Below, piece by piece: positions 7,201-64,000 of a stretch of 64,000 bases of DNA (the first letter of the stretch is position 1; every line of letters begins with the position of its first letter). This DNA is from Sabellastarte sp. h YS-2021 (lineage: Eukaryota; Annelida; Polychaeta; Sabellida; Sabellidae), in contig OZ024934.1 of assembly GCA_964017235.1 (NCBI GenBank), positions 60,275,365 through 60,339,364 of the forward strand, given 5' to 3'. The position numbers and the translations under genes are program-made. The notes under the pieces are model-generated. The model did no database searches, was not told the origin of the DNA, and worked only from the letters and a program-made list of their open reading frames with translations.

Positions 7201-7209
7201 TGGAAGCAA

Positions 7210-7453: not shown

Positions 7454-7690
7454 TGGAAGCAAATTCAGTCCAACTATTCTGAAGGGTTTAAATGGCAATT
7501 CCTATAAGTGTATAAGTTATGAGCAGAATTGACAGAATTAGAGGCATTTTATACAAACAGATAATAACCATTGATCATTTATGACCAGATTGATTAAATT
7601 GACTGGGCTAGGGGTATGAATATGGACAATATACATTTGTATATACCAAATTTGGCAGACCCATCAGAAAAAGAGTATTTGAGAAATATA
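7454..7690. other. Short spacer, left flank of the large nested element
   Basis: Unremarkable AT-rich intronic DNA. It ends GAGAAATATA directly before the outer family-1 element; the matching right flank is ACAAGCATTC at 20,666. Confidence 0.5.
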
Positions 7691-16986: not shown

Positions 16987-19116
16987 ATTAGCTATGGGTC
17001 TGGAACTTCACCATGTGAAAGCTCTCCCAAAAGTAGGTGAATGAGTTATTTGAGAAAAATTGGCTATCTGCAATACTTTTAGAGATAATTCGCATTTACT
17101 CATTTTGAGTAGGTGAGTAATTAGCTATGGGTCTGAAACTTCACCATGTGAAAGCTCTTCCAAAAGTAGGTGAATGAGTTATTTGAGAAAAATTGGCTAT
17201 CTGCAATACTTTTAAGAGATAATTCGCATTTACTCATTTTGAGTAGGTGAGTAATTAGCTATGGGTCTGAAACTTCACAGAGTGAAAGCTCTCCCAAAAG
17301 TAGGTGAATGAGTTATTTGAGAAAAATTGGCTATCTGCAATACTTTTAGAGATAATTCGCATTTACTCATTTTGAGTAGGTGAGTAATTAGCTATGGGTC
17401 TGAAACTTCACCAAGTGAAAGCTCTCCCAAAAGTAGGCCAATGATTAATTTGACAAAAATTGGCTATCTGCAATACTTTTAGAGATAATTCGCATTTACT
17501 CATTTTGAGTAGGTGAGTAATTAGCTATGGGTCTGAAACTTCACCAAGTGAAAGCTCTCCCAAAAGTAGGTGAATGAGTTATTTGAGAAAAATTGGCTAT
17601 CTGCAATACTTTTAGAGATAATTCGCATTTACTCATTTTGAGTAGGTAAGTAATTAGCTATGGGTCTGAAACTTCACCAAGTGAAAGCTCTCCCAAAAGT
17701 AGGCCAATGATTAATTTGACAAAAATTGGCTATCTGCAATACTTTTAGAGATAATTCGCATTTACTCATTTTGAGTAGGTGAGTAATTAGCTATGGGTCT
17801 GAAACTTCACCATGTGAAAGCTCTCCCACAAGTAGATGAATGAGTTATTTGATAAAAATTGGGTATCCGCAATACTTTTACAGATAATTAGCATTTACTC
17901 ATTTTGAGTAGGTAAATAATTAGCTATGGGTCTGGAACTTCACCATGTGAAAGCTCTCCCAAAAGTAGATGAATGAGTTATTTGATAAAAATTGGGTATC
18001 CGCAATACTTTTACAGATAATTAGCATTTACTCATTTTGAGTAGGTAAATAATTAGCTATGGGTCTGGAACTTCACCATGTGAAAGCTCTCCCAAAAGTA
18101 GGTGAATGAGTTATTTGAGAAAAATTGGCTATCTGCAATACTTTTAGAGATAATTCGCATTTACTCATTTTGAGTAGGTGAGTAATTAGCTATGGGTCTG
18201 AAACTTCACCATGTGAAAGCTCTTCCAAAAGTAGGTGAATGAGTTATTTGAGAAAAATTGGCTATCTGCAATACTTTTAGAGATAATTCGCATTTACTCA
18301 TTTTGAGTAGGTGAGTAATTAGCTATGGGTCTGAAACTTCACAGAGTGAAAGCTCTCCCAAAAGTAGGTGAATGAGTTATTTGAGAAAAATTGGCTATCT
18401 GCAATACTTTTAGAGATAATTCGCATTTACTCATTTTGAGTAGGTGAGTAATTAGCTATGGGTCTGAAACTTCACCATGTGAAAGCTCTTCCAAAAGTAG
18501 GTGAATGAGTTATTTGAGAAAAATTGGCTATCTGCAATACTTTTAGAGATAATTCGCATTTACTCATTTTGAGTAGGTGAGTAATTAGCTATGGGTCTGA
18601 AACTTCACCAAGTGAAAGCTCTCCCAAAAGTAGGTGAATGAGTTATTTGAGAAAAATTGGCTAGCTGCAATACTTTTAGAGATAATTCGCATTTACTCAT
18701 TTTGAGTAGGTGAGTAATTAGCTATGGGTCTGAAACTTCACCAAGTGAAAGCTCTCCCAAAAGTAGGTGAATGATTTATTTGAGAAAAATTGGCCATCTG
18801 CAATACTTTTAGAGATAATTCGCATTTACTCATTTTGAGTAGGTGAGTAATTAGCTATGGGTCTGAAACTTCACCATGTGAAAGCTCTCCCACAAGTAGA
18901 TGAATGAGTTATTTGATAAAAATTGGGTATCCGCAATACTTTTAGAGATAATTCGCATTTACTCATTTTGAGTAGGTGAGTAATTAGCTATGGGTCTGAA
19001 ACTTCACCATGTGAAAGCTCTTCCAAAAGTAGGTGAATGAGTTATTTGAGAAAAATTGGCTATCTGCAATACTTTTAAGAGATAATTCGCATTTACTCAT
19101 TTTGAGTAGGTGAGTA
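16987..19116 (+). repeat. 133-bp satellite array (outer element, right block, ~16 units)
   Basis: Direct continuation of the array broken at 10,028. It has the same monomer subtypes and ends with the same GTGAGTAAAATGGCC junction as the inner copy. Confidence 0.95.
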
Positions 19117-20269
19117 AAATGGCCGCCATTTTTGGCAAGATAAATTTTTTTTGAAAATTGGCATGGCTACTCTGCAGAGATACCCTGTGGGTCAAAAATT
19201 TCGTCGAAATCACTCTATCTAGCACGGTTTTCGAGATATAAGCATTTTTGTGTTTTGCAATTTTGCGAAAAATTCGAAAATTCAAAATGGCCGCCATTTT
19301 TTGCGAGAAATTTTTTGTTTGAAAATTGGCATGGCTACTCTGCAGATATACCCTGTGGATCAAAAATTTCGTCGAAATCGCTCTATCTTGCAGGGTTTTC
19401 GAGATATAAGCATTTTTATGTTTTGCAATTTTTGCGAAAAATTCGAAAATTCAAAATGGCCGCCATTTTTGGCGAGATAAAATTTTTTTCAAAATTGGGA
19501 TAACTACTCTGCAGAGATACCCTGTGGGTCAAAAATTTCGCCGAAATCGCTCTATCTAGCACAGTTTTCGAGATATAAGCATTTTTGTGTTTTGCAATTT
19601 TTACGAAAATTTCGAAAATTCAAAATGGCCGCCATTTTTGGCGAGACAAAATTTTTTTGAAAATTGGGAAAAGTACTCCACAGAGATACCCTGTGGGTCA
19701 AAAATTTTGTCGAAATTGCTCTATCTAGCACAGTTTTTGAGATATAAGCATTTTTGTGTTTTGCAATTTTTGCGAAAATTTCGAAAATTCAAAATGGCCG
19801 CCATTTTGGACGAGACAAATTTTTTTTGAAAAATGGGAAATCTACTCCGCAGAGATACCCTGTGGGTCAAAAATTTCGTCGAAATCGCTCTATCTAGCAC
19901 GGTTTTCGAGATATAAGCATTTTTGTGTTTTGCAATTTTTACGAAAATTTCGAAAATTCAAAATGGCCGCCATTTTGGACGAGACAAAATTTTTTTGAAA
20001 ATTGGGAAAACTACTCCGCAGAGATACCCTGCGGGTAAAAAATTTCGTCGAAATCGCTCTATCTAGCACGGTTTTTGAGATATAAGCATTTTTGTGTTTT
20101 GCAATTTTTGCGAAAATTTCGAAAATTCAAAATGGCCGCCATTTTGGACGAGACAAAAATTTTTTGAAAACTGGGAAAACTACTCCGCAGAGATACCCTG
20201 CGGGTCAAAAATTTCGTCGAAATCGCTCTATCTAGTACGGTTTTCGAGATATAAGCATTTTTGTGTTTT
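19117..20269 (+). repeat. 169-bp tandem repeat array (outer element, ~7 units)
   Basis: Same unit and order as 15,428-16,581, with matching per-unit variants (for example GGACGAGACA in the later units). It was therefore inherited as a block rather than built independently. Confidence 0.95.
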
Positions 20270-20665
20270 CCTTATTTGGAAAATTCGTAATGATTAATTA
20301 ATCATTAATTACTCGGCCATTTCTTGACCAATCAATGCCAAAATCTAATGATTTCCAGATTTTAATAGAATGAATGTATTTGCCAAGTTTCAGGTGAATT
20401 GATAAAATTCCTTTCAAGTTATCATCCGGACAAGCTTCCCCATCGAAAAAAGACATTTTTGGTCATGTGACCTCTCTGATTGGTTGAAATGTCACTGCAG
20501 CATATTCAAAAAAATTCCCCAAGGCTACTGCCTAAACCTGCCAAATTTGAAAAGAATCCGCCTAACGGTTACAGAGTTATAAGGAAAACAAAATGCGGAG
20601 CCGGCGGAGCCGGCGGAGCCTGAAGCTCTCCCATACACAAACAAGCGTCCCTTGCGGGACGCTTA
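20270..20665 (+). repeat. Family-1 tail, outer copy
   Basis: Near-identical to 16,582-16,986 but with three 9-bp GC-rich units instead of about four. It ends in a hairpin with AAGCGTCCC/GGGACGCTT arms. ACAAGCATTC follows, the start of a family-3 element. Confidence 0.85.
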
Positions 20666-22212
20666 ACAAGCATTCAGTGCCTGTGAACAGGCTCTGCGTC
20701 AGCTGACTGTATGTTTTGAGTTTCAGAGTAGAAGTGACAGAAGAAAATACTGTAAAATGCAATGGTTTTCGAGTTACAACCAATTTACTAAACAGTGAGA
20801 ATCTCAAAGCACATTTTGCTCAGCTTTGGAATGAGCTACAGGTCTGCAATTTTACTGTGGTATAGTTAACCCAAAAGTAGGTGAATAACATATTTAAAGC
20901 AAATTCTCTAAGAGAAATAGTTTTCAAGTTACAACTGATTTACTTTACAGTAAAAACCTGAAAGTAGCTATTACACAGTTATGCAATGAGCTACAGGTCT
21001 ACAATTTCACTATGTTATACCTGACCCCAAAAATAGTGAATAATATATTTAAACAAAATTCGCTAAATGCACTAGTTTTTGAGTTATAACTGATTTACTC
21101 AACAGTGAGAACTTCAAAGTAGCTGTTGCTCAGCTATGCAATAAGCTACAGGTCTATAATTTCACTATGTTACAGCTGATTCCAAATGCAATAGTTTTCA
21201 AGTTACAACTGATTTACTCAACAATGATAACCTCAAAGTAGCTATTGCCCAGATATGCCATGAGCTACAGGTCTGCAGTTTTACTATGTTATAGTTGACC
21301 CAAAAGTAGCTGAATAATATATTTAAAGAAAATACTTTAAATGCAATACTTTTCAAGTGATAACTAATTTACTCAACAGTGAGGACATCAAAGTAGCTAG
21401 CGCTCAGCTATGAAGTACACTACAGGTCTGCAATTACACTATGTTACAGCTGATCCAAAAGTATGTCAATAGCATATTTAAAGGAAATACTCTAAATGCA
21501 ATACTTTCAAGTTCAACTGATTTACTCAACATTGATAACCTCAAAGTAGCTATTACTCAGATATGCAATGAGCTACAGGCCTGCAATTTTACTATTTTTC
21601 TACTTGTTTTCGAGTTACAAGTGATTTTACTCATTATGGAAGTTACTGAAAAGTGAAAAAGTAGCTATTACTCACTTAGCTATTGGGATAGACTCCCATG
21701 TTACTTACCATGTTGTAGGTATGGAAAAAGTAGCTGAATAACATATTTCAACAAAATGCTCTAAATGCAATACTTTCAAGTTAAAAGTGATTTACTGCAT
21801 GATTTCAGGAATTTTAATGCATAAAAATTATTTTAAAAATTCATAAAAAATAATTAAGAGAGATCCAGGCCTGATACTCACACAAGGGAATCTACTAGTG
21901 GGATAGTACATGTATGCAAGATAAGAGAGAAATCCCTTCAATAATGAAGGGGAAAATTATCATAAAGTGTCCAAATTTTCAGACTTAAGGTGGGGGTACC
22001 TCACTTGTAATGGCTTTAGGGAACAAACGAATGAACAGATCTGCATGACTTGACAATTTTTTCATCCTCGATAGATAAGGTATTTTTTAAAAAAAGCAGC
22101 ATGTCTATGTGCCTTGTACTTTTGGAGAAGAAGTTGTTCACACAGATGCCAACGCATACACCACAGAGTGATGCCATAATATCAGCTGACTGACAAGTCA
22201 GCCGACATAAAA
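20666..22212 (+). mobile_element. Family-3 Helentron-like element, copy 2
   Basis: It begins near AAGCATTCAGTGCCTGTGAAC with a subterminal GTCAGCTGACTG. The core is about six degenerate ~150-bp units (GTAGCTATTGCTCAGCTATG, CCCAAAAGTAGGTGAATAAC, TTTTCAAGTTACAACTGATTTACTC). A ~400-bp 3' part follows (TTAAAAATT runs, GGTGGGGGTACCTC). It closes on ATCAGCTGACTGACAAGTCAGC, a hairpin region. The ~150-bp core unit is recognisably related to the 133-bp family-1 satellite. Non-coding. Confidence 0.7.
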
Positions 22213-28985: not shown

Positions 28986-29557
28986 TAGTGGACTATAAAT
29001 TATAATAATACTGTGTCAGTGCAGTTAAGGGAGGAGTGTAATTTCTTCTTACAGGACTCCACAGCACAGAACACTTTGTCCTTAACAGCTATCAGTTGAT
29101 GTCAAAGCATTCAGAGGTGACAACACAAACATACATCACACAAACACAGTCATGAGTCAGCCAGGATGAACCAGTTTAGGTAAATAAACATCAATGCTCA
29201 CTTCCCCAATATGTTATTAACAGGCAATTCAAATCTGCGGATTAATTGAAACTAAAACTCATGATAACACAACCATGTCTATATTATTTTTTTAACAACT
29301 GTATTTGTAGGTACATTGAAGAGTGACCTAAAGGTAACACTGGGATGGTTGCTAACTAAAAATCATACAAATTCTATTTGACTCTAACATAGGCACTGAC
29401 ACTGATGATGGCTATTTTCTCACTTTAAAAGACCAACACTCCACTGGATAGGAAACTAAATGTGTGTAAATGAGGATAATTACGTAGGGCTCTCGTATAC
29501 GTATGTTAAGTTAAAAACAAATCACAGGAAATTTTCCTGTCTATCATATTTTAAAGC
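28986..29557. other. Spacer without supported gene
   Basis: AT-rich intronic DNA. A minus-strand frame of about 33 codons around 29,020-29,110 (phrase VKDKVFCAVESC) is open, but it lacks a convincing acceptor and is preceded by a stop. Nothing else seen. Confidence 0.4.
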
Positions 29558-30565
29558 AAGCAATCAGTGCCTGTGAACGGGCTCTGTGTCAGCTGACTGT
29601 GTGTTTTGAGTTTCAGAGTAGAAGTGACAGAAGAAAAGGACACAAAAGTTGTGTCCTGGAAATGGTGTTCAGAAGGAAATTAAGAAGGTAACTGTTAAGG
29701 TGTAAAAAGTAAGTTAAAAACATATTTAAAGAAAATATTGCAAATGCAATAGTTTTAATTTTACTATGTTATAGCTGACCCCAAAATAGGTGAATAACAT
29801 ACTGAAACTAAATACTCTAAATGTAATAGTTTTCAAGTTATAAGTGATTTACTCAACAGTGATAACCTAAAAGTAGCTATGCCATGAGCTACAGGTCTGA
29901 AATTTTACTATGTTATAGCTGATCCAAAAGTAGCTGAATAACATATCTATTCAAAATTCTCTAAATACAATAGTTTTCAAGTTACAAGTGATTTTACTCA
30001 TGATGGAAGTTACTGAAAAGTGCACAAGTAGCTATTACTCACTTAACTATTGAGATAGACACCCAAGTTACTCACCATGTTGTAGCTATGGAAAAAGTAG
30101 CTGAATAACATATTTTAACAAAATGCTCTAAATGCAATACTTTTCAAGTTATAATTGATTTAGTGCATGATTTCATTAATTTTAATGCATTAAAAATTAA
30201 TTAAAAAATTCATAAAAAAAAATAATTAAGAAAGATCCAGGTCTGACACTCAGACAAGAGAATGTACTTGTGGTCTAGTACATATATGCAAGATATGAGA
30301 GAAATCCCTGCAATAGTCACTGAGAAAATTGTGATAAAGTGTTGAAATTTTCACACTTTTGGTGGGGGTACCTCACTTGTAATGGCTCTAGCAAACAGAC
30401 GAACAGACAGATTTGCATGCCTTGAACACTTTTTCATCCTCGATAGATAAGTTATCATTAAAAAAAAACAGTATGTCTCTAGGCCTTATAGTTTTGGAGA
30501 AGTTGTTCACGCGTACGCCAATGCCGCAAAGTGACGACATAATGTCAGCTGACTGACAAGTTTTC
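29558..30565 (+). mobile_element. Family-3 Helentron-like element, copy 3
   Basis: Starts AAGCAATCAGTGCCTGTGAACG with subterminal GTGTCAGCTGACTGTG. It has three or so degenerate ~150-bp core units, then the standard 3' part, ending AATGTCAGCTGACTGACAAG near 30,560. Shorter than copy 2 because it has fewer core units. Confidence 0.7.
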
Positions 30566-39920: not shown

Positions 39921-41180
39921 AAGAGTGCAAGCCCAAAATGGGTAATTATAAAATGGAGAGCTGCGCAGTGAACAAAAATGTATCTCTGCGCATTTGTGTG
40001 AGTCCATTAAAGAGAAATAAATGTCCACTGTTCCATTCTGTGAACAAGAATGTGCAATATAACCTCAAAATTAAATTTGAAAACAAACACAAGCAATCAG
40101 TGCCCGTGAATGTTTTGCTCTGTGTGTTTTGAGTTTTAGAGAAGAAGTAACAGAAGGACACAAAGTTGTGCCCTGCAAATGGTATTCAGAAGGAAAGTAA
40201 CAAGGTTTGGGTGAAAAAGAAGGTTAAAAACATGTTCAAAGAAAATACTGCAAACACAATAGTTTTCGAGTTACAACTGATTTACTCAACAGTGAGAATG
40301 TCACAGTAGCTTTTGCTCAGCTATGCAATCAGTTAAAGGGCTGCAATTTTAATATGGTATAGCTCAAGCAAAAGTAGGTAAATAACATATTTAAAGAAAT
40401 ACTGTAAATGAAACAGTTTTCAAGTTACAACTGATTTACTCAACAGTGAGACCTTGAAAGTAGCTATTACTCAGCTATGCAAGGAGCTAGAGGTTTGAAA
40501 TTTTACTATTTTATAGCTGACCCAAAAATACGTTAACAATTTATTTAAACAAAATACTGTAAATGCAATAGTTTTCAAGTTACAACCAATTTAACTGAAC
40601 AGTGAAAATCTAAAAGTAGCTATTGCTCAGCTATGCCATGAGCTACAGGTCTACAAATTATTTTAAAAATTCATAAAAAAAATAACTAGAGGATCACTTG
40701 CAAAAAAAAAAAGATAATAGCAAAAACAAAGCGTCCCGAAAAGGATATAAAGGTCAGTGCTAAAGTATTAAGAAAATGCTTCGTTTCTAGCCTTATACTG
40801 TTGTGGCAACCAAAGTCAGCGCAGTCTGCTCTATCTAGCACGGTTTTCACGATATAAGCATTTTTGTGTTTCGTAAAAAATTCGGAAATTCAAAATGGCC
40901 GCTATATTTGGCGAGACAAAAATATTTTGAAAATTGGCATGGCTACTCTGCAGAGATATCCAGCAGGTCAAAAATTTTGTTGAGTTCACTCCATCTAGCA
41001 CGGTTTTCGAGATATAAGCATTTTTGTGTTTTGCAAAAACTTTGAAAATTCAAAACGGCCACCATTTTTGGGGAGACAAAAATTTTTGACAAGACCACTG
41101 CCGCGGTGTGTATCTCCCGCCGAGCATTAAAGGAGAAGAACTAGCTTTTCCCAGATATTCACAATTTTTCATTTTCGTGT

Positions 41181-42519
41181 GTGAAAGCTCTTCCAAAAGT
41201 AGGTGAATGAGTTATTTGAGAAAAATTGGCTATCTGCAATACTATTAAGAGATAATTCACATTTACTCCTTTTGAGTAGGTGAGTAATTACCTACGGGTC
41301 TGGAACTTCACCAAAAAGTTCTCCCAAAAGTAGATGAATGAGTTATTTGATAAAAATTGGGTATCCCCAATACTTTTAGAGATAATTCGCATTTACTCAT
41401 TTTGAGTAGGCGAAAAATTACCTATGGGTCTGAAACTTCACCAAGTGAAAACTCTCCTAAAAGTAGGTGAACGAGTTATTTGAGAAAAATTGGCTATCTG
41501 CAATACTTTTAGAGATAATTCACATTTACTCTTTTTGAGGAGATGAGTAATTAGCTATGGGTCTGAAACTTCACCATGTGAAAGCTCTCCCACAAGTAGA
41601 TGAATGAGTATTTGATAAAAATTGGGTATCCGCAATACTTTTAGAGATAATTCACATTTACTCATTTTGAGTAGGTGAATAATTAGCTATGGGTCTGAAA
41701 CTTCACCATGTGAAAGCTCTCCCACAAGTAGATGAATGAGTATTCGATAAAAATTGGGTATCCGCAATACTTTTACAGATAATTAGCATTTACTCATTTT
41801 GAGTAGGTGAGTAATTAGCTACGGGTCTGAAACTTCACCAAGTGAAAGCTCTCCCAAAAGTAGGTGAATGAGTTATTTGAGAAAAATTGGCTATCTGCAA
41901 TACTTTTAGAGATAATTCGCATTTACTCATTTTGAGTAGTTGAGTAATTAGCTATGGGTCTGAAACTTCAACAAGTGAAAGCTCTCCCAAAAGTAGGTGA
42001 ATGATTTATTTGAGAAAAATTGGCTATCTGCAATACTTTTAGAGATAATTCGCATTTACTCATTTTGAGTAGTTGAGTAATTAGCTATGGGTCTGAAACT
42101 TCAACAAGTGAAAGCTCTCCCAAAAGTAGGTGAATGATTTATTTGAGAAAAATTGGCTATCTGCAATACTTTTAGAGATAATTCGCATTTACTCATTTTG
42201 AGTAGGTGAGTAATTAGCTATGGGTCTGAAACTTCACCATGTGAAAGCTCTCTCACAAGTAGATGAATGAGTTATTTGAGAAAAATTGGCTATCTGCAAT
42301 ACTTTTAAGAGATAATTCGCATTTACTCATTTTGAGTAGGTGAGTAATTATCTACGGGTCTGAAGCTTCACCATGTGGAAGCTCTGCCAAAAGTAGATGA
42401 ATGAGTTATTTGATAAAAATTGGGTATCCGCAATAGTTTTAGAGATAATTAGCATTTACTCATTTTGAGTAGGTGAATAATTAGCTACGGGTCTGAAACT
42501 TCACAGAGTGAAAGCTCTT
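41181..42519 (+). repeat. 133-bp satellite array (copy 3, ~10 units)
   Basis: Same unit as the 8-19 kb arrays with more substitutions. It breaks off in GTGAAAGCTCTTTGGGATAGC, joining a 169-type unit, the same junction as at 56,095. Confidence 0.95.
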
Positions 42520-43296
42520 TGGGATAGCTGCCCTGCAGAGATACCCTGAAGATCAAAAATTTCGTCGAAATCATTCTATGTAGCACGGTTTTCGAGATAT
42601 TAGCATTTTTGTGTTTTGCAATTTTTGCGCAAAAATTCGAAAATTCAAAATGGCCGCCATTTTTGGTAAGACAATTTTTTTTTGAAAATTGGCATGGCTA
42701 CTCTGCAGAGATACCCTACAGGTCAAAAATTTCGTCGAAATCACGCTATCTAGCAGGCTTTTCGAGATATAAGCATTTTTATGTTTTGCAATTTTTGCGA
42801 AAAATTCGAAAATTCAAAATGGCTGCCATTTTTGGAGAGACAAAATTTTTTTGAAAATAGGCATGGCTACTCTGCAAAGATACCCTGTGGGTCAAAAATT
42901 TCGTCGAAATCACTCTATCTAGCAGGGTTTTCGAGATATAAGCATTTTTATGTTTTGCAATTTTTGCGAAAAATTCGAAAATTCAAAATGGCCGCCATTT
43001 TTTGAGAGACAATTTTTTTTTTTTTGAAAATTGGCATGGCTACTCTGCAGAGATACCCTGTGGGTCAAAAATTTCGTCGAAATCGCTCTATCTAGCAGGG
43101 TTTTCGAGATATAAGCATTTTTATGTTTTGCAATTTTTGCGAAAAATTCGAAAATTCAAAATGGCCGCCATTTTTGGCGAGACAAAATTTTTTTGAAAAC
43201 TGGCATGGCTACTCTGCAGAGATACCCAGTGAGTCAAACATTTCGTCGAAATCGCTATCTAGCACGGTTTTCGAGATATAAGCATTTTTGTGTTTT
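42520..43296 (+). repeat. 169-bp tandem repeat array (copy 3, ~4.6 units)
   Basis: Units share the AAAATGGCCGCCATTTT, CTGCAGAGATACCCTG and GAGATATAAGC blocks. CTAGCAGGG(C/T)TTTCG variants predominate here. Confidence 0.95.
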
Positions 43297-43323
43297 CTTT
43301 ATTTGGAAAATTCATAATGATTA

Positions 43324-44975
43324 ACTAGATTGGGCCAACTCAGCGCCAACATATCCCCAGACAGGTCATCACTCATGCCACAGGTTTTGATCGGGAATTT
43401 TTTATTTAATCCAATTGTTGTATGCCATAAATATTGGGAAAAGTTATATGAACTTCAGCACATCAATCTACTAAGTTTATATCTTCCCAAGGAAGATGGT
43501 GTATCCCCAGACGTCGAATACATAACTCAACAGATCATATTTTCAATCTTCCTGCAATGATAACTCTGAACCTATTTTCAAAGTATTTAAATGATTGATG
43601 ATTGAATGTCCATTCTAAATTAATAATCTCAAAAGAGCATATCTGTTTCTATATTTGTTGACAAATAAAATATTATTTTTAACTCAACTCATCATACTTT
43701 TCAATCTTCCTGCAAAGGGTAACTCTGAACCTATTTTCAAAGTATTTAAATGATTGATGATTGAATGTCCATTCTAAATTCATAATTCCAAAAGCGTATC
43801 TCTGTTTCTATATTTGTTCACAAATAAAATATTATTTAAAAATCATATATTATTTATATTATTATTTTATTATATTATTTTTAGAATTTGCATTGTTTTT
43901 CAGTTATTCATTTCCTCAATTCCTATATATGTGGTCCATATATATGCAACCTAAATATGTGACACAATCTCAGTTCGGACTCCCTTTGTCTTAGATAATT
44001 AGATAATGAAGCAAACACCACCTCCCAGCCCCACCCCACCTCTCTCCCCTTCTCCACACCTCTCTCACTATTACAGAAGATCTGTATACCTTTGTTTATT
44101 TAGTGTCACTCAATAGCTGGAGGTCCCAGAGGTGGGTGGGGGATGGGGGGTGGGTCTACAAAGAGATGGAGTGCTGCAGCACAAATGGTAAACAAACACT
44201 TATAATATAAAAGGGGTAATCAAATACAAAAAGCTCAGTTAATCTTATCACTAAAATCAAATCAAATATATAAATAAGGAATGTCTATTAAAGGCCTAAA
44301 TTTTGGAGTACATACAAGAAAACATATTCATATATTCTCAGATGATATTTCACTTAGATGAGAGACATAGTTTGAAAGCTACAGTGCTTGAAGATGGCAA
44401 AAAGTCCTTAAATTGGGTCTCTGTGGGCAATTTTGAGATCTTAAGTCGGCCTAACAGGTAAACCTACAGCCTTTAAATTTTTCACAGACAAGGATTACAT
44501 ATAAGAGTTACATTTAGTGCAGTTTGAGACTCATCAGAATTAACACTTCCAAATTATAGGGCAAAATAAGTTAAAAATATAGGAAAAAAGTCCTAAGTGG
44601 GGTCTTCATGGGCCTCAAAGACAATTTTCTCCTCAACTTAAAGTCTTGATTTTCGGCACATGTACTAAGAATATATTAATGTGTTCTCAGGTAAAATTTG
44701 AGGCACATAAGCCTCATAGTTTGTGACCTAGAGGGCTCTAAGTGGCCAAAAGTGCAATTTCTGACCTTAAGGTGGCCATAAGTTCTTTATTATTGGGAGT
44801 TTAAGGTCACCTTAAAATAGGGATCTTCCTTTGGGCATCCTTAACATGTGTACCAAGTTTGAAAAAAAAATATTAATCCCTTTTTGAGTTATCGTGTACA
44901 CAAGGAAATTTCTACGGCGCCCGCGGCGCGACGGACCTGAATCCAATATATCCCCGACTTTCGTCTGGGGATATA
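43324..44975 (+). mobile_element. Family-2 Helentron-like element, complete
   Basis: 1,652 bp starting ACTAGATTGGGCC, with 5' motif ATATCCCCAGAC at 43,351-43,362. It ends ATATCCCC-GACTTTCG-TCTGGGGATATA, whose right arm is the inverse of the 5' motif. It sits in the AT palindrome of the family-1 tail. Flanks CATAATGATTA and ATTAATCATTAATT rejoin to the intact tail phrase seen at 16,597, 20,287 and 57,383 with no duplication. The interior has C-rich/G-rich blocks (44,010-44,150) and worn repeats with AAAAAGTCCT.AA.T.GGGTC. No coding capacity. Confidence 0.85.
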
Positions 44976-45748
44976 ATTAATCATTAATTACTCGGCCATT
45001 TCTTAACCAATCAAAGCCAAAATCTAATGATTTCCAGATTTTAATAGAATGAATGTATTTGCCAAGTTTCAGGTGAATTGATAAAATTCCTTTCAAGTTA
45101 TCATCCGGACAAGCTTCCCCATCGAAAAAAGACATTTTTGGTCATGTGACCTCTCTGATTGGTTGAAATATCACTGCAGCATATTCAAAAAAATTCCCCA
45201 AGGCTACTGCCTAAACCTGCCAAATTTGAAAAGAATCCGCCTAACGGTTACAGAGTTATAAGGAAAACAAAATGCGGAGCCGGCGGAGCCTGAAGGTCTC
45301 CCATACACAAACAAGCGTCCCGCAAGGGATGCTTAATTAAGAAAGATCCGGGCCTGATACTCACACAAGGTTATCTACTAGTGGACTAGTACATATATAC
45401 AATCTAAGAAAAAAATCCCTGAAATAGTCAATGAGAAAATAAGTGATTTAGAGTATGACTTCATGAATTTTAATGCATTAATAATTATTTAAAAAATAAT
45501 TAATACAAAAAAAATTAAGACAGATCCAGGTCTAATACTCACACAAGGTAATCTACTAATGGCCTAGTACATATATGCAAGATATGAGAACAATCCCTGC
45601 AATAGTGAATGAAGAAATTGCAAAGTTTTGACATTTTCACAATTTTGGTGGGGGTACCTGACTTGTAATGGCTCTGGGGAACAGACGAATGAACAGATCT
45701 GCATGCCTTGAATATTTTTTCATCCTCGATATTAATGTATCTTTTAAA

Positions 45749-46278
45749 ACAAGAGGGTCAAAGATGCCCCAAAAGGCGGGTTGCACAGACAGCAATAAGG
45801 TTAGCGACTGCTGTAATTAAATTTAGAAACAAGGAAAGAAATGTTAGGTCACCCAGTTAGGGCGATAGTGTTAGACGTGCTAAGAAATATAAAACTTGTA
45901 ATCTAGGTTACATAATTGTATCTATGCTATAAACAGACAAGTGAAAGGACGGAATTACGCCAATTTTGAAAGCAACTTGGCTATGATGATTATGTATCTC
46001 TATGTCAAGTTTGAATTCGATTGGACAAAGCATTTTTGAGTTAGAGTCCGGAAACAGAAATGTTGACGAACAGACAAATGGACATGAAACAGACAAACAA
46101 ACTGACAGAATTACACCAATTTCGAAAGGAACCTAGCTATGATGGTGATCTATCTCCCTGTCAAGTTTGAATTTGATCAGAGTCTGGAAATGAAAATGTG
46201 GACGGCCAGACAGACGGACAGACGGATGTCGGACACATCCATCTAATAGGCAGGTTGGTTACACGCAACCCACCTAAA
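45749..46278 (+). mobile_element. Family-4 small Helentron-like element, copy 1
   Basis: Starts (A)ACAAGAGGGTCAAAGATGCC with 5' motif GCGGGTTGC at 45,776-45,784. The core is about two units of CAAGTTTGAATTCGATTGG, GAGTTAGAGTCCGGAAAC and GACAGACGGACAG. The 3' end is a worn hairpin GCAGGTTG...CAACCCACC. It was inserted into the A-run of the family-3 3' part (TTTTAAAA / AACAGTATGTCTC); exact ends are ambiguous by a few A's. Confidence 0.75.
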
Positions 46279-46586
46279 AAACAGTATGTCTCTGGGTCTT
46301 GTAGTTTAGGAGGAGAAGTTGTTCACGTGGACGCGTTCGCTTATGCGGACGCGGACGCCCATGCTGCAGAGTGACGACATAATGTCAGCTGACATAAAAA
46401 TTCCCCAGGCTCGATCTTTATGGCCCTCAATTAAAGCTTAAACATTAACTTAAGTTTTGATTTCTGGCATATGTAAGAACAACTGTGTTCCTTTGTGAAA
46501 TTTAAGGTGCATGGACAGGATGCTGAAGTGATGGTCACACTGTTAGAGTTATGACTCTTAGAGTTTGATGAGGGTTATTAACATAC

Positions 46587-50995: not shown

Positions 50996-51537
50996 ACAAG
51001 AGGGTCAAAGATGCCCCAAAAGGCGGGTTGCGCAGGCAGCAATAAGGTTAGCGACTGCTGTAATTAAATTTAGAAACAAGGAAAGAAATGTTAGGTCACC
51101 CAGTTAAGGTAAATGTGTTAGACGTGCTAAGAAATACAAAACTAGTAATCTAGGTTACATAATTGTATCTATGCTATAAATGGACAAACGAACAAACAGA
51201 ATTACACCAATTTCAAAGCTAACTTAGCTATGATGGTGATCTATCTCCCTGTCAAGTTTGAATTCGATTGGATAAAGCATTTTCGAGTTAGAGTCCGGAA
51301 ACGGAAATGTTGATGGACAGACAAGCGGACAAAAAACGAACAAACAGAATTACACCAATTTCGAAAGGAACCTAGCTATGATGGTGATCTATCTCCCTGC
51401 CAAGTTTGAATTCGATTGGACAAAGAGTTTTCGTGTTAGTGTCCGGAAACAAATATTTTGATGGACAGACGGACAAACAGATGGACGTCGGGCACATCAA
51501 TCTAATAAGCGGGTTGGTTACATGCAACCCGCGTAAA
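50996..51537 (+). mobile_element. Family-4 small Helentron-like element, copy 2
   Basis: Starts ACAAGAGGGTCAAAGATGCC with motif GCGGGTTGC. The core is two repeats of the GAGTTAGAGTCCGGAAAC unit. It ends in a perfect hairpin GCGGGTTG-GTTACATG-CAACCCGC at 51,509-51,532. Close to copy 1 (45,749) but with an intact terminal hairpin. Confidence 0.8.
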
Positions 51538-53998: not shown

Positions 53999-54496
53999 AC
54001 TAGAGGATCGCTCGCAAAAAAAAAAAGATAATGTTTTTGCATAGCAAAAACAAAGCGTCCCGAAAAGGATATAAAGGTGAGTGCTAAAGTATTAAGAAAA
54101 TGCTTCGTTTCTAGCCTTATACTGTTGTGGCAACCAAAGTCAGCGCAGTCTGCTCTATCTAGCACGGTTTTCAAGATATAAGCATTTTTGTGTTTTGCAA
54201 AAAATTAAAAATGTCCGCTATATTTGGCGAGACAAAAATATTTTGAAAATTGGCATGGCTACTCTGCAGAGATACCCAGCAGGTCAAAACTTTTGTTGAG
54301 TTCACTCCATATAGCACGGTTTTCGAGATATAAGCATTTTTGTGTTTTGCAAAAACTTTGAAAATTCAAAATGGCCACCATTTTTGGGGAGACAAAAATT
54401 TTTGTCAAGACCACTGCCGCGGTGTGTATCTCCCGCCGAGAATTAAAGCAGAAGAAATAGCTTTTCCGAGATATTCACAATTTTTCATTTTCGTGT

Positions 54497-56103
54497 GTGA
54501 AAGCTCTCCCAAAAGTAGGTGAATGAGTTATTTGAGAAAAATTGGCTATCTGCAATACTTTTAGAGATAATTCGCATTTACTCATTTTGAGTAGGCGAGT
54601 AATTAGCTATGGGTCTGAAACTTCACCATGTGAAAGCTCTCCCACAAGTAGATGAATGAGTATTTGATAAACATTGGGTATCCGCAATACTTTACAGATA
54701 ATTAGCATTTACTCATTTTGAGTAGGTGAATAAATAGCTATGGGTCTGAAACTTCACAGAGTGAAAGCTCTGCCAAAAGTAGGTGAATGAGTTATTTGAG
54801 AAAAATTGGCTATCTGCAATACTTTTAAAGATAATTCGCATTTACTCATTTTGAGTAGGTGAGTAATTAGCTATGGGTCTGAAACTTCACAGAGTGAAAG
54901 CTCTCCCAAAAGTAGGTGAACGAGTTATTTGAGAAAAATTGGCTATCTGCAATACTTTTAAAGATAATTCGCATTTACTCATTTTGAGTAGGTGAGTAAT
55001 TAGCTATGGGTCTGAAACTTCACGGAGTGAAAGCTCTCCCAAAAGTAGGTGAATGAGTTATTTGAGAAAAATTGGCTATCTGCAATACTTTTAGAGATAA
55101 TTCGCATTTACTCATTTTGAGTAGGTGAGTAATTAGCTATGGGTCTGAAACTTCACCAAGTGAAAGCTCTCCCAAAAGTAGGTGAATGATTTATTTGAGA
55201 AAAATTGGCTTTCTGCAATACTTTTAGAGATAATTCGCATTTACTCATTTTGAGTAGGTGAGTAATTAGCTATGGGTCTGAAACTTCACAGAGTGAAAGC
55301 TCTGCCAAAAGTAGGTGAATGAGTTATTTGAGAAAAATTGGCTATCTGCAATACTTTTAGAGATAATTCGCATTTACTCATTTTGAGTAGGTAAATAATT
55401 AGCTATGGGTCTGAAACTTCACCAAGTGAAAGCTCTCCCAAAAGTAGGTGAATGATTTATTTGAGAAAAATTGGCTATCTGCAATACTTTTAGAGATAAT
55501 TCGCATTTACTCATTTTGAGTAGGTAAATAATTAGCTATGGGTCTGAAACTTCACCATGTGAAAGCTCTCCCAAAAGTAGGTGAATGAGTTATTTGAGAA
55601 AAATTGGCTATCTGCAATACTTTTAGAGATAATTCGCATTTACTCATTTTGAGTAGGTGAGTAATTAGCTATGGGTCTGAAACTTCACCATGTGAAAGCT
55701 CTCCCAAAAGTAGGTGAATGAGTTATTTGAGAAAAATTGGCTATCTGCAATACTTTTAAGAGATAATTCGCATTTACTCATTTTGAGTAGGTGAGTAATC
55801 ATCTACGGGTCTGAAACTTCACCATGTGAAAGCTCTCCCCAAAGTACATGAATGAGTTATTTGATAAAAATTGGGTATCCGCAATAGTTTTTGAGATAAT
55901 TAGCATTTACTCATTTTGAGTAGGTGAGTAATTAGCTACGGGTCTGAAACTTCACCAAGTGAAAGCTCTTCCAAAAGTAGGTGAATGAGTTATTTGAGAA
56001 AAATTGGCTATATGCAATACTTTTAGAGGTAATTCGCATTTACTCATTTTGAGTAGGTGAGCAATTAGCTATGGGTCTGAAACTTCACCAAGTGAAAGCT
56101 CTT
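54497..56103 (+). repeat. 133-bp satellite array (copy 4, ~12 units)
   Basis: Same monomer; junction to the 169-bp array is GTGAAAGCTCTTTGGGATAGC as in copy 3. Confidence 0.95.
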
Positions 56104-57362
56104 TGGGATAGCTGCTCTGCAGAGATACCCTGAAGATAAAAAATTTCGTCGAAATCGCTCTATGTAGCACGGTTTTCGAAATATTAGCATTTTTGTGTTT
56201 TGCAATTTTTGCGCAAAAATTCGAAAATTCAAAATGGCCGCCATTTTTGGCAAGAGAAATTTTTTTTGAAAATTGGCATGGGTACTTGGCACAGATACCC
56301 TGTGGGTCAAAAATTTCGTCGAAATCGCTCTATCTAGCACGGTTTTCGAGATATAAGCATTTTTATGTTTTGCAATTTTGCGAAAAATTCGAAAATTCAA
56401 AATGGCCGCCATTTTTTGCGAGCAATTTCTTTTTTGAAAATTGCCATGGCTACTCTGCAGAGATACCCTGTGGGTCAAAAATTTCGTCGAAATCGCTCTA
56501 TCTAGCAGGGTTTTTCAAGATATAAGCATTTTTATGTTTTTGCAATTTTTGCGAAAAATTCGAAAATTCAAAATGGCCGCCATTTTTGGCGAGACAAAAT
56601 TTTTTTGAAAATTGGCATGGCTAATCTGCAGAGATAGCCTGTGGGTCAAAAATTTCATCGAAATCGCTCTATCTAGCAGGGTTTTCGAGATATAAGCATT
56701 TTTATGTTTTGCAATTTTTGCGAAAAATTCGAAAATTCAAAATGGCCGCCATTTTTGGCGAGACAAAATTTTTTTGAAAATTGGCATGGCTAATCTGCAG
56801 AGATAGCCTGTGGGTCAAAAATTTCGTCGAAATCGCTCTATCTAGCAGGGTTTTCGAGATATAAGCATTTTTATGTTTTGCAATTTTTGCGAAAAATTCG
56901 AAAATCCAAAATGGCCGCCACTTTTGGCGAGACAAAAACTTTTTCAAAATTGGGATAATACTCTCCAGAGATACCCTGTGGGTAAAAAATGTCATCGAAA
57001 TCGCTCTATCTGGCACGATTTTCGAGATATAAGCATTTTTGTGTTTTGCAATTTTTGCGGAAAATTCAAAATGGCCGCCATTTTGGGCGAGAGAAAATTT
57101 TTTTGAAAATTGGGAAAACTACTCCACAGACATATCCTGCGGAATTTTGCTCTATCTAGCACGGTTTTTGAGATATAAGCATTTTTGTGTTTTGCAATTT
57201 TTGCGAAAATTTCGAAAATTCAAAATGGCCGCCATTTTTGGTGAGATAAAATTTTTTTGAAAATTGGGAAAACTACTCCGCAGAGATACCCTCTGGGTCA
57301 AAAATTTCGTCGAAATCGCTCTATCTAGCACGGTTTTCGAGATATAAGCATTTTTGTGTTTT
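56104..57362 (+). repeat. 169-bp tandem repeat array (copy 4, ~7.5 units)
   Basis: Units as elsewhere. One unit near 57,120-57,150 has lost ~25 bp of the GGGTCAAAAATTTCGTCG block. Confidence 0.95.
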
Positions 57363-57758
57363 CCTTATTTGGAAAATTCGTAATGATTAATTAATCATTA
57401 ATTACTCGGCCATTTCTTAACCAATCAATGCCAAAATCTAATGATTTCCAGATTTTAATAGAATGAATGTATTTGCCAAGTTTCAGGTGAATTGATAAAA
57501 TTCCTTTCAAGTTATCATCCCGACAAGCTTCCCCATCGAAAAAAGACATTTTTGGTCATGTGACCTCTCTGATTGGTTGAAATGTCACTGCAGCATATTC
57601 AAAAAAATTCCCCAAGGCTACTGCCTAAACCTGCCAAATTTGAAAAGAATCCGCCTAACGGTTACAGAGTTATAAGGAAAACAAAATGCGGAGCCGGTGG
57701 AGCCGGCGGAGCCTGAAGGTCTCCCATACACAAACAAGCGTCCCTTGCGGGACGCTTA

Positions 57759-58568: not shown

Positions 58569-59446
58569 ACTAGATTGGGCCAACTCGGCGCCAACATATC
58601 CCCAGACAGGTCATCACTCACGCCACAGGTTTTGATCAGGAATTTTTTAAAACATAATTACCCATTATTATATGAACTTCAGCACATCAATCTACTCTGT
58701 TTATATCTCCCCAAGGAAGATGGTGTATCCCCAGACGCCGAATACATAACTCAAATTATATTTTCAATCTTCCTGCAATGATAACTCTAAACCTATTTTC
58801 CAAGTATTTAAATGATTGATGATTGAATGTCCATTCTAAAATAATAATCCCAAAAGAGCATATCTGTTTCTATATTTGTTGACAAATAAAATATTATTTT
58901 TAACTCAACTCATCATATTTTTCAATCTTCCTTCAAAGTATTTAAATGATTGATGATTCAATGTCCATTCTAAAATTCATAATCCCAAAAGCGCATATCT
59001 GTTTCTATATTTGTTCACAAATAAAATATTATTTAAAAAAAAATTATTTATATTATTATTTTATTATATTATTTTTAGAATTTGCAAATTGTTTTCAGTT
59101 ATTCATTTCCTCTATACCTATATATGTGGTCCATATATATGCAACCTAAATATGTGACACAATCTCAGTTCTGACTCCCCTTTGTGTTATATGTAATGAA
59201 GCCCACCACCTCCCACCCCCACCCCTCTCCCCTTCTCCACACCTCTCTCACTATTACACAAGATCTGCAACCCCATTGAGTTCTTTGTTTCTCATCTGAT
59301 ATCATTAAATACCTTTGTTTATTTAGTGTCACTCAATATAGCTGGAGGCCCCAGAGGTGGGTGGGGGGAATCCGGGTGGGGGATGTGGGTTGAGCATAAA
59401 TGGTAAACAAACAATCTATATAAAAGGGGTACTCAAATACAAAAAG
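58569..59446 (+). mobile_element. Family-2 element, copy 2, 3'-truncated
   Basis: Starts ACTAGATTGGGCCAACTCGG and follows copy 1 (43,324) through the AATAAAATATTATTT blocks and C-rich tract to GGGGTACTCAAATACAAAAAG. After that it diverges. The 3' hairpin is missing. One internal repeat block present in copy 1 is shortened. Confidence 0.8.
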
Positions 59447-59531
59447 AATTGAGAATTTTAAGTATGTGATTATCAACTGAAATGAGTTCATAACTGTAGG
59501 AGCTGTGCCAAAATTAACTGAGGCAAGCTGA

Positions 59532-62500
59532 ACTAGAGGATCGCTCGCAAAAAAAAAAAGATAATGTTTTTGCATAGCAAAAACAAAGCGTCCCGAAAAG
59601 GATATAAAGGTGAGTGCTAAAGTATTAAGAAAATGCTTCGTTTCTAGCCTTATACTGTTGTGGCAACCAAAGTCAGCGCAGTCTGCTCTATCTAGCACGG
59701 TTTTCAAGATATAAGCATTTTTGTGTTTTGCAAAAAATAAAAAAATTAAAAATGTCCGCTATATTTGGCGAGACAAAAATATTTTGAAAATTGGCATGGC
59801 TACTCTGCAGAGATACCCAGCAGGTCCAAAATTTTGTTGAGTTTACTCCATATAGCACGGTTTTCGAGATATAAGCATTTTTGTGTTTTGCAAAAACTTT
59901 GAAAATTCAAAATGGCCACCATTTTTGGGGAGACAAAATTTTTTGTCAAGACCACTGCCGTGGTGTGTATCTCCCGCCGAGCATTAAAGCAGAATAAATA
60001 GCTTTTCCGAGATATTCACAATTTTTCATTTTCGTGTGTGAAAGGTCTTCCAAAAGTAGGTGAATGAGTTATTTGAGAAAAATTGGCTATCTGCAATACT
60101 ATTAAGAGATAATTCACATTTACTCATTTTGAGTAGGTGAATAATTATCTATGGGTCTGAAACTTCACCAAGTGAAAGCTCTCCCACAAGTAGGTGAATG
60201 AGTTATTTGAGAAAAATTGGCTATCTGCAATACTTTTAGAGATAATTCGCATTTACTCATTTTGAGTAGGTGAGTAATTAGCTATGGGTCTGAAACTTCA
60301 CCATGTGAAAGCTCTCCCACAAGTAGATGAATGAGTATTTGATAAAAATTGGGTATCCGCAATACTTTTACAGATAATTAGCATTTACTCATTTTGAGTA
60401 GGTGAATAAATAGCTATGGGTCTGAAACTTCACAGAGTGAAAGCTCTCCCAAAAGTAGGTGAATGAGTTATTTGAGAAAAATTGGCTATCTGCAATACTT
60501 TTAGAGATAATTCACATTTACTCATTTTGAGTAGGTGAATAATTAGCTATGGGTCTGAAACTTCACCAAGTGAAAGCTCTGCCAAAAGTAGGTGAAGGAT
60601 TTATTTGAGAAAAATTGGCTATCTGCAATACTTTTAGAGATAATTCGCATTTACTCATTTTGAGTAGGTGAGTAATTAGCTATGGGTCTGAAACTTCACC
60701 AAGTGAAAGCTCTCCCAAAAGTAGGTGAATGAGTTATTTGAGAAAAATTGGCTATCTGCAATACTTTTAGAGATAATTCGCATTTACTCATTTTGAGTAG
60801 GTGAGTAATTAGCTATGGGTCTGAAACTTCACCAAGTGAAAGCTCTCCCAAAAGTAGGTGAATGATTAATTTGAGAAAAAATTGGCTATCTGCAATACTT
60901 TTAGAGATAATTCGCATTTACTCATTTTGAGTAGACGAGTAATTAGCTATGGGTCTGAAACTTCACCAAGTGAAAGCTCTCCCAAAAGTAGGTGAATGAG
61001 TTATTTGAGAAAAATTGGCTATCTGCAATACTTTTACAGATAATTCGCATTTACTCATTTTGAGTAGGTGAGTAATTAGCTATGGGTGTGAAACTTCACC
61101 AAGTGAAAGCTCTCCCAAAAGTAGGTGAATGATTAATTTGAGAAAAATTGGCTATCTGCAATACTTTTAGAGATAATTCGCATTTACTCATTTTGAGTAG
61201 GTGAGTAATTAGCTATGGGTCTGAAACTTCACCAAGTGAAAGCTCTCCCAAAAGTAGGTGAATGAGTTATTTGAGAAAAATTGGCTATCTGCAATACTTT
61301 TAGAGATAATTCACATTTACTCATTTTGAGTAGGTGAGTAATTAGCTATGGGTCTGAAACTTCACAGAGTGAAAGCTCTGCCAAAAGTAGGTGAATGAGT
61401 TATCTGAGAAAAATTGGCTATCTGCAATACTTTTACAGATAATTCGCATTTACTCATTTTGAGTAGGTGAGTAATTAGCTATGGGTCTGAAACTTCACAG
61501 AGTGAAAGCTCTCCCAAAAGTAGGTGAATGAGTTATTTGAGAAAAATTGGCTATCTGCAATACTTTTAGAGATAATTCGCATTTACTCATTTTGAGTAGG
61601 TGAGTAATTAGCTATGGGTCTGAAACTTCACCAAGTGAAAGCTCTCCCAAAAGTAGGTGAATGATTAATTTGAGAAAAAATTGGCTATCTGCAATACTTT
61701 TAGAGATAATTCGCATTTACTCATTTTGAGTAGACGAGTAATTAGCTATGGGTCTGAAACTTCACCAAGTGAAAGCTCTCCCAAAAGTAGGTGAATGAGT
61801 TATTTGAGAAAAATTGGCTATCTGCAATACTTTTACAGATAATTCGCATTTACTCATTTTGAGTAGGTGAGTAATTAGCTATGGGTGTGAAACTTCACCA
61901 AGTGAAAGCTCTCCCAAAAGTAGGTGAATGATTAATTTGAGAAAAATTGGCTATCTGCAATACTTTTAGAGATAATTCGCATTTACTCATTTTGAGTAGG
62001 TGAGTAATTAGCTATGGGTCTGAAACTTCAAGTGAAAGCTCTCCCAAAAGTAGGTGAATGAGTTATTTGAGAAAAATTGGCTATCTGCAATACTTTTAGA
62101 GATAATTCACATTTACTCATTTTGAGTAGGTGAGTAATTAGCTATGGGTCTGAAACTTCACAGAGTGAAAGCTCTGCCAAAAGTAGGTGAATGATTAATT
62201 TGAGAAGAATTGGCTATCTGCAATACTTTTAGAGATAATTCACATTTACTCATTTTGAGTAGGTGAGTAATTAGCTATGGGTCTGAAACTTCACCAAGTG
62301 AAAGCTCTCTCAAAAGTAGGTGAATGAGTTATTTGAGAAAAATTGGCTATCTGCAATACTTTTACAGATAATTCGCATTTACTCATTTTGAGTAGGTGAG
62401 TAATTAGCTATGGGTCTGAAACTTCACAGAGTGAAAGCTCTCCCAAAAGTAGGTGAATGAGTTATTTGAGAAAAATTGGCTATCTGCAATACTTTTAGAG

Positions 62501-64000
62501 ATAATTCGCATTTACTCATTTTGAGTAGGTGAGTAATTAGCTATGGGTCTGAAACTTCACCAAGTGAAAGCTCTCCCAAAAGTAGGTGAATGATTAATTT
62601 GAGAAAAAATTGGCTATCTGCAATACTTTTAGAGATAATTCGCATTTACTCATTTTGAGTAGACGAGTAATTAGCTATGGGTCTGAAACTTCACCAAGTG
62701 AAAGCTCTCCCAAAAGTAGGTGAATGAGTTATTTGAGAAAAATTGGCTATCTGCAATACTTTTACAGATAATTCGCATTTACTCATTTTGAGTAGGTGAG
62801 TAATTAGCTATGGGTGTGAAACTTCACCAAGTGAAAGCTCTCCCAAAAGTAGGTGAATGATTAATTTGAGAAAAATTGGCTATCTGCAATACTTTTAGAG
62901 ATAATTCGCATTTACTCATTTTGAGTAGGTGAGTAATTAGCTATGGGTCTGAAACTTCACCAAGTGAAAGCTCTCCCAAAAGTAGGTGAATGAGTTATTT
63001 GAGAAAAATTGGCTATCTGCAATACTTTTACAGATAATTCGCATTTACTCATTTTGAGTAGGTGAGTAATTAGCTATGGGTCTGAAACTTCACAGAGTGA
63101 AAGCTCTCCCAAAAGTAGGTGAATGAGTTATTTGAGAAAAATTGGCTATCTGCAATACTTTTAGAGATAATTCGCATTTACTCATTTTGAGTAGGTGAGT
63201 AATTAGCTATGGGTCTGAAACTTCACCAAGTGAAAGCTCTCCCAAAAGTAGGTGAATGATTAATTTGAGAAGAATTGGCTATCTGCAATACTTTTAGAGA
63301 TAATTCACATTTACTCATTTTGAGTAGGTGAGTAATTAGCTATGGGTCTGAAACTTCACCAAGTGAAAGCTCTCTCAAAAGTAGGTGAATGAGTTATTTG
63401 AGAAAAATTGGCTATCTGCAATACTTTTAGAGATAATTCACATTTACTCATTTTGAGTAGGTGAGTAATTAGCTATGGGTTTGAAACTTCACCAAGTGAA
63501 AGCTCTCCCAAAAGTAGGTGAATGAGTTATTTGAGAAAAATTGGCTATCTGCAATACTTTTAGAGATAATTCGCATTTACTCATTTTGAGTAGGTGAGTA
63601 ATTAGCTATGGGTCTGAAACTTCACCAAGTGAAAGCTCTCCCAAAAGTAGGTGAATGAGTTATTTGAGAAAAATTGGCTATCTGCAATACTTTTAGAGAT
63701 AATTCGCATTTACTCATTTTGAGTAGGTGAGTAATTAGCTATGGGTCTGAAACTTCACCATGTGAAAGCTCTCCCACAAGTAGATGAATGAGTTATTTGA
63801 TAAAAATTGGGTATCCGCAATACTTTTACAGATAATTAGCATTTACTCATTTTGAGTAGGTAAATAATTAGCTATGGGTCTGAAACTTCACCATGTGAAA
63901 GCTCTCCCAAAAGTAGGTGAAAGAGTTATTTGAGAAAAATTGGCTATCTGCAATACTTTTAGAGATAATTCACATTTACTCATTTTGAGTAGGTGAGTAA
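59532..64000 (+). mobile_element. Family-1 Helentron-like element, copy 5 (open at window end)
   Basis: Head 59,532-60,037 with intact hairpin and AAGCGTCCCG motif, then 133-bp satellite 60,038-64,000 (~30 units) still running at the window edge. The 169-bp array and tail, if present, lie outside. Confidence 0.9.
60038..64000 (+). repeat. 133-bp satellite array (copy 5, ~30 units, higher-order structure)
   Basis: Marker GTAGACGAGTAATT recurs at 60,931, 61,730 and 62,659 (799 and 929 bp, about six and seven units), each time followed by a CTTTTACAG monomer and then a TGATTAATTTGAG monomer. This array was built from a different block than the inner-copy array. Confidence 0.95.

Follow-up and report, generated by a model that had tools for sequence, protein, structure and literature searches.

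The stretch of Sabellastarte sp. DNA analysed here (64,000 nucleotides, referred to as the window) carries elements of four repeat families, and all four are stacked within 6.3 kb (window 40088-46395). The host of this nest is a family-3 element (40088..46395, minus strand, like all window elements described below) with a 5' hairpin at 46382-46395 and a degraded 3' end near 40088. When the nested elements were left out, this host was 82-85% identical to family-3 copies at two other loci of the genome (R13 and R14). A non-autonomous family-4 element (45749..46276) and a family-1 element (40685..45335) both sit inside the family-3 element, and the family-1 element in turn contains an entire family-2 element (43324..44975). 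The latter, a non-autonomous Helentron-type element (HINE), corresponds exactly to the span that an earlier note on this DNA had singled out. Its 5' hairpin (44948..44974) includes the 5' word ATATCCCCAGAC and folds as DNA with -9.5 kcal/mol (z -3.96), its 3' word GTCTGGGGATAT (43351..43362) lies 26 nt ahead of the terminal T, and the 3' hairpin with the end CTAG^T (43324..43350) is weak (z -2.78). In the family-1 element around it, the 5' hairpin (45313..45334) has an inverted loop (flop) and one altered arm, and the 3' word, which reads AAGCGTCCCG on the plus strand, was found at 40729..40738.

Outside the nest, the window contains a second non-autonomous family-4 element (50996..51534) and two more family-3 elements. 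One of them (20666..22210, 5' limit approximate) abuts with its 3' end the 5' end of a family-1 element, so that the two ends adjoin directly at 20665/20666; the other (29556..30561) is short and has degraded ends and approximate limits, and its 5' part is 88-90% identical to the copies at R13 and R14. Family 1 is represented by an element with 133- and 169-bp arrays (7691..20665), by another one located within the 133-bp array of the former (10029..16986) and by an entire element at 53999..57758. At the end of the window (58569..64000), a family-2 3' end at 58569 was found, the element behind it encloses a family-1 3' end at 59532, and both corresponding 5' ends are outside the window. The arrays of 133- and 169-bp units in the family-1 bodies occupy 8195-20269, 41181-43296, 54497-57362 and 60038-64000. 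Elsewhere in the genome, four family-1 3' ends at C1:2390635-2413717 are spaced by 7,731, 7,591 and 7,731 bp, which is probably a tandem duplication.

Read on the minus strand, the elements consist of a target T, a 5' T, a hairpin bearing the word, a body that is often packed with tandem arrays, the inverted word, a second hairpin, CTAG (families 1 and 2) or CTTG (families 3 and 4) and a target T. On the plus strand, they begin with ACTAGA or ACAAG and finish in a hairpin. The 5' word is located 0-2 nt from the end and within the 5' hairpin in all four families, and the 3' word precedes the terminal T by 52, 26, 30 and 24 nt in families 1, 2, 3 and 4. A second hairpin between the 3' word and CTAG/CTTG was also found in all four families (z -2.7 to -6.3). 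In families 2 and 4 this hairpin is weak, and in family 1 it is separated from the end by about 30 nt. Words, inverted partners and the terminal ACTAGA or ACAAG were all located where the earlier note had put them, and its description of one layout, in which each family combines a word with an inverted hairpin partner, is correct in this respect. However, the family-2 5' hairpin is imperfect (ATATCCCC-GAC vs. GTCTGGGGATAT) and the separate 3' hairpins were missing from that account. Moreover, its strand reading must be inverted: the hairpin described as 3'-terminal forms the 5' end, and the supposed 5' motif is the 3' subterminal word. The minus strand as putative sense strand is supported by the direction of the family-4 genes at R14. 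Since elements with reversed genes are named in the available text of PMC4067079 and PMC3627910, gene direction alone is no proof of the sense strand.

Without prior knowledge of the words, we scanned 309,739 bases for 10-mers with a hairpin partner and an inverted copy 250-14000 nt downstream, at most 85 nt from CT[AT]GT. This word-blind scan returned 13 pairings and all 13 came from the four families. Among these, R14 and another family-4 locus (L051) each contribute two pairings because of a second, internal hairpin, and in the window no fewer than two pairings connect the 5' end of one copy with the 3' end of its neighbour. When the word was reversed or only complemented, 0 and 0 pairings were obtained. 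Six other end words used as controls gave 4, 0, 8, 0, 2 and 1 pairings, and three of these 15 were located away from CT[AT]GT. The longest word shared between the 5' end and the inverted 3' end measures 10, 12, 11 and 12 bp in families 1, 2, 3 and 4, but only 3-5 bp when ends of different families were compared. Thus, families 2, 3 and 4 reach 11-12 bp and family 1 remains one base below the 11-bp rule given in the accessible part of PMC4067079.

All four families were built on the same plan, and three of them were counted in the genome assembly (1.79 Gb, 647 contigs), with matching rules that differ between families. We found 7,246 family-1 5' ends, 7,863 family-1 3' ends with fixed flanks (9,837 with up to 3 mismatches), 8,044 family-2 5' hairpins (up to 2 mismatches) and 3,862 family-4 hairpins (up to 2 mismatches, internal second hairpins included). 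Searches with the backward sequences of the family-1, -2 and -4 ends yielded 0 matches. The family-1 word itself occurs 15,913 times genome-wide, compared with 484 occurrences of its backward reading.

Comparison with empty sites placed five of five insertions (families 1, 2 and 4) at T^T without target duplication. For the family-2 element in the nest, the joined flanks read TTCATAATGATTAATTAATCATTAATTA; this site is intact in three uninterrupted family-1 copies, and the insertion at T^T involved neither duplication nor loss. A second family-2 element lies inside a family-4 Helentron and interrupts its Rep motif, for which R14 provides the uninterrupted sequence CATTGTTTATTTTGGATAG and the join reads PHLHCLFWIENS. 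The family-1 element at 10029..16986 is flanked by GAGTAGGTAAATA and ATTAGCTATGGG, the array sequence is GAGTAGGTGAGTAATTAGCTATGGG, and 78 exact uninterrupted copies of it are present in the window. The insertions of family 1 and family 4 into family 3 constitute two further T^T sites without duplication, at which single-base differences are unreadable because the family-3 relatives are only 83-90% identical. The joined flanks of the family-1 element (40685..45335) aligned gap-free across the junction to the R14 family-3 copy (64 nt, 83%); with the R13 copy no alignment across this junction was returned, so that one of two relatives covers the site. Those of the family-4 element (45749..46276) aligned to both family-3 copies, gap-free at the junction with R14 (98 nt, 90%) and with a T run one T shorter in R13 (89%). 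In addition, TT precedes 26 of 26 family-1 5' ends that were read.

The earlier note had called for an autonomous element with Rep and helicase that carries matching ends, and such an element was found for family 4. The genome contains 24 matches to Helitron_like_N, some of which are fragments of one locus. Six 30-kb loci were read and the other 18 matches with 1.5 kb on each side. At R14 (C2:137343446-137373445, 30 kb), both family-4 ends flank Helitron_like_N, DUF6570 and PIF1, with the helicase part distributed over overlapping frames. Relatives of this Rep (96-99%) are present at C3:168674115 (open frame of 2245 aa), C4:41573068 and C11:69208205. Of these three, the C11 locus (R12) was read: it carries the family-4 3' word, but the sequence following CTTTTGGG differs, and among the Rep-bearing loci R14 is the one at which both ends were seen. 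R12 is also the locus of the second family-2 insertion, which lies within the PHLH motif of the family-4 Rep gene (gene coordinates 10566-14620).

For families 1-3, no partners with their ends were found in the six 30-kb Rep loci or in the 1.5-kb flanks of the remaining 18 matches. Another Rep locus (R09) was considered as partner of family 1 since a hairpin (AAGCATCCC...GGGGTGCTT) about 300 bp ahead of its first open frame looked related. This candidate was rejected: its alignment score of 25 fell within the range of 60 shuffles (mean 22.2, SD 2.5, maximum 28), and R13 likewise scored 25. A weak word pair at R11, with the two words 20 kb apart, was put down to chance.

R09 and R14 have Reps with 37% identity, and the endonuclease domain of R09 exceeds the Pfam cut-off. 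When taken alone, the family-4 endonuclease domains remain below this cut-off (24.0 bits for R12 vs. a threshold of 24.5, and 19.3 bits for L051). The 823-aa frame of L051 aligns end to end with the R09 frame through the motifs GDFN, LDH and SDH. As predicted from these alignments, the family-4 protein has an endonuclease fused behind its helicase.

L051 (C3:84893700-84899000) is itself a family-4 element with ends at 402 and 4778. Its open frame of 823 aa comprises PIF1 and the endonuclease region, and it is devoid of the R14 segment from 3665 to 11815, which includes Rep. At least 25 helicase matches covered query residues 604 or 605 to 789 only (97-99%), a lower bound because 57 of 125 candidates were scored. 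For 10 of these 25, an open frame of 823 aa was recorded, with a stop flagged in one of them; among loci of this type, sequence was read for L051. Judged from this locus, a Rep-less family-4 derivative that keeps an 823-aa helicase-endonuclease frame is new here. Family-4 ends also show an internal second 5' hairpin about 0.75 kb inside (R14 at 2307 and 3075, L051 at 402 and 1151), and a number of the family-4 hairpin places listed genome-wide are paired at distances of 0.6-0.8 kb.

Taken together, these data indicate that the four families are very probably rolling-circle transposons of the Helentron type, each with ends of the Helitron2 type. Only non-autonomous HINEs were seen here for families 1-3, and for family 4 copies bearing Rep were seen as well. 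The class proposed in the earlier note, asymmetric terminal inverted repeats of Helentrons and HINEs, is therefore borne out by the ends, by insertion at T^T without duplication and by the family-4 Rep/helicase copy, but in the opposite orientation. Following the available text of PMC3627910, transposition may proceed as follows. Rep would nick the foot of the 5' hairpin and the helicase would then unwind the element. The emerging 3' word would pair with the 5' word and open the 5' hairpin, and the opened hairpin would mark the end for cutting at the second hairpin. Any word would serve provided that both ends agree, and words would therefore drift between families but stay fixed within one. 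To the pairing of the 3' word with the 5' word we assign about an even chance.

The energetics of the ends are compatible with this pairing step. The calculated DNA energies (5'-3' duplex/5' hairpin, without loop closure) were -15.1/-10.6, -14.8/-8.7, -15.3/-12.4 and -19.8/-12.5 for families 1-4, so that the duplex was stronger than the 5' hairpin in four of four families, and foreign 3' words gave only -3.1 to -9.2. Pairing of the family-4 3' word with the family-2 5' end (-8.1) came close to the own hairpin of family 2 (-8.7). These modelled values fit the switch proposed in PMC3627910, as far as its text was available, but they are partly circular because the word was found by complementarity.

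The most serious alternative retains the same transposons but interprets the word as a protein-binding site, which the Rep of each family reads at both ends without any end-to-end base pairing. We consider the chances of this alternative to be somewhat below even. A conserved protein site would suit the near-identical words described in accessible parts of PMC4067079 for Helentron families that are less than 70% alike, and it would also suit the lack of compensated changes within family 1. Among the first 100 listed copies, 15 family-1 3' words were changed (11 of the 15 by a transition at CpG), as were 10 of 100 5' arm pairs. These are lower bounds because the search patterns fix some hairpin and flank letters and thus miss copies altered there. 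In none of the 10 altered 5' hairpins did the opposite arm carry a compensating change, and none of the family-1 elements that were changed at one end and had the other end listed (10 + 7 = 17; one of the ten 3' pairs, with a span of 14 kb, is doubtful) showed a matching change. A script covered all 100 5' ends and 43 of the 100 3' ends. It reached 13 of the 15 altered 3' words, and the remaining two, as well as the 5' arm changes and their partners, were taken from the lists of matches. Covariation between the two ends, which the earlier note had suggested as a check, was thus absent in family 1, the family in which it was examined. The listed family-1 copies have one word in common, and changes acquired by decay once they had inserted are hardly informative about function. 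On the other hand, the words are wholly different between families, and in families 1, 2 and 4 the unbroken match to the left hairpin arm is longer for the 3' word than for the right arm, as expected for a competitor strand. The corresponding run lengths were 10 vs. 9 in family 1, 12 vs. a stem with one bulged base in family 2 and 12 vs. 11 in family 4. Both observations speak against a protein-binding site.

Canonical Helitrons (Helitron1) are a very improbable explanation. The Rep/helicase partner of family 4, the CTAG of families 1 and 2, which fits CTRR, and the hairpin near the 3' end would be in line with this class. However, canonical features are absent from the 5' end: there is no 5' TC, the target is T^T and not A^T, and a 5' hairpin with paired words is present. 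In addition, families 3 and 4 end with CTTG and the family-4 protein would carry an endonuclease. Cut-and-paste elements of a TIR transposase (MITEs) with subterminal inverted repeats would explain why both ends carry inverted words and why the copy number is high. We regard this possibility as extremely improbable since all five empty sites lack target duplication and the placement of the words is asymmetric. Moreover, a TIR transposase had been named in the earlier note as the partner that would contradict it, and instead Rep and PIF1 are present in the family-4 copy that has these ends. Finally, a chance or compositional coincidence among palindromes is virtually inconceivable, for even though the loci that were read contain many unrelated hairpins, the 13 pairings stand against none with reversed or complemented words and the thousands of copies against backward controls of 0.

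The four families represent an ordinary kind of transposon, the Helentron type. The private word of each family need not be regarded as a puzzle. According to the available parts of the literature, such a word defines Helentron families (PMC4067079), and its 5'-3' pairing with compensatory changes was described in PMC3627910. Private words thus belong to the definition of these families, and no new principle is involved. The Helitron2/Helentron layout published in PMC3627910 and PMC4067079, as far as accessible, matches the minus-strand layout, and the pairing-switch model was put forward by Bao and Jurka (2013, PMC3627910), who reported compensatory changes for two related elements. As in the Helitron2 elements of the latter source, the 5' word is located 0-2 bp from the end in a 5' hairpin, a T is found at the 5' end and the 3' word directly precedes a hairpin, at a distance of about 20-30 bp from the end. 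This distance applies to families 4, 2 and 3 (24, 26 and 30 nt), but the family-1 3' word is 52 nt away. In contrast to Helitron2, which lacks an endonuclease according to the available text of PMC4067079, the family-4 protein is predicted to carry one.

With Helentrons and HINEs/DINE-1 (Thomas et al., 2014, PMC4067079, accessible parts), our families share palindromic words, a 3' palindrome, a TT target without duplication (families 1, 2 and 4), a Rep/helicase/endonuclease partner that is outnumbered by non-autonomous copies (seen here for family 4), and a word that defines the family. They differ in the distance of the 3' word from the end, which is 24-30 nt in three families here and about 38-60 in the mite HINEs of that source. 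They also differ in their ends: CTAG/CTTG^T was found here, whereas the same text gives a 3' CTAG for a Phytophthora proto-Helentron inserting between A and T. Cg_HINE of Crassostrea gigas (PMC7492417, as far as available) likewise combines HINE ends around satellite-like arrays with T-rich targets and no duplication, but its sequences are different and here a copy that bears Rep between the same ends was also seen for one family. FoHeli of Fusarium has asymmetric terminal inverted repeats and hairpins as well. Its joined ends were demonstrated experimentally according to the accessible part of PMC5148889, in which no endonuclease was found in fungal elements.

An additional property of these ends is the orientation of the hairpin loop. 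Among the first 100 listed family-1 5' hairpins, the loop reads GCAA in 74, ACAA in 8, GAAA in 1, TTGC in 15 and TTGT in 2 copies; thus, 17 of 100 are inverted when decayed forms are included. In the window, the inverted hairpin at 45313-45334 can be compared with the usual ones at 16964-16985, 20643-20664 and 57736-57757, and further copies are present at L052-L062. The loop of the family-1 3' hairpin is inverted at 324 places (up to 1 mismatch), roughly 4% of the 7,863 usual ones, which were counted with a different flank rule. The family-4 hairpin is inverted at 14 places vs. 3,862 usual ones, both with up to 2 mismatches. For family 2, 0 inversions were counted vs. 8,044 normal hairpins, because all 58 raw matches lack the inner flank ATTGG and were read as normal copies from the other strand; this reading was checked at one place (C1:1859194 vs. 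C1:1859202). Of these 58 family-2 ends, 57 share the outer flank ATTCAT (e.g., C1:1859194), which suggests a common target repeat or co-amplification.

The inverted family-1 hairpins do not appear to be clustered by ancestry. On a poorly resolved tree of 26 copies, which had been picked as 13 of each orientation (166 flanking columns, 12 of 18 inner branches open), the loop state changed 9 times, compared with 8.2-8.3 changes with shuffled labels. Moreover, one inverted copy was identical to four usual ones across the 166 columns. Since the loop state is not clustered on this tree, the inversion probably happened many times or was spread by conversion. The distance from the consensus was 0.025 on average for inverted and 0.011 for usual copies (one-sided permutation p 0.09, one outlier of 0.146). 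The decayed TTGT loops suggest that the inverted copies have existed long enough to acquire mutations, and this makes an assembly artefact unlikely.

Loop inversion between inverted arms is a general mutation process, known from plastid DNA, and for this reason involvement in transposition is just one possible interpretation of these data. In the literature that we searched, mostly outside subscription journals, no report was found that describes inverted loops in the hairpins of Helitrons or Helentrons. The occurrence of the family-1 5' hairpin in two orientations is, as judged from the copies compared, new here. That this hairpin was physically turned over in its life, like the flip/flop ends of hairpin-transfer replication, we consider unlikely. 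If the inversion took place during transposition, the hairpin would be an intermediate that is processed through cutting and re-joining by Rep, and the proportion of inverted copies would gauge how often this happens. The orientation polymorphism of the family-1 hairpin may be a footprint of hairpin handling. With thousands of similar copies with matched ends, five clean empty sites and one Rep-bearing copy, the pairing-switch model is open to a direct test in these families.
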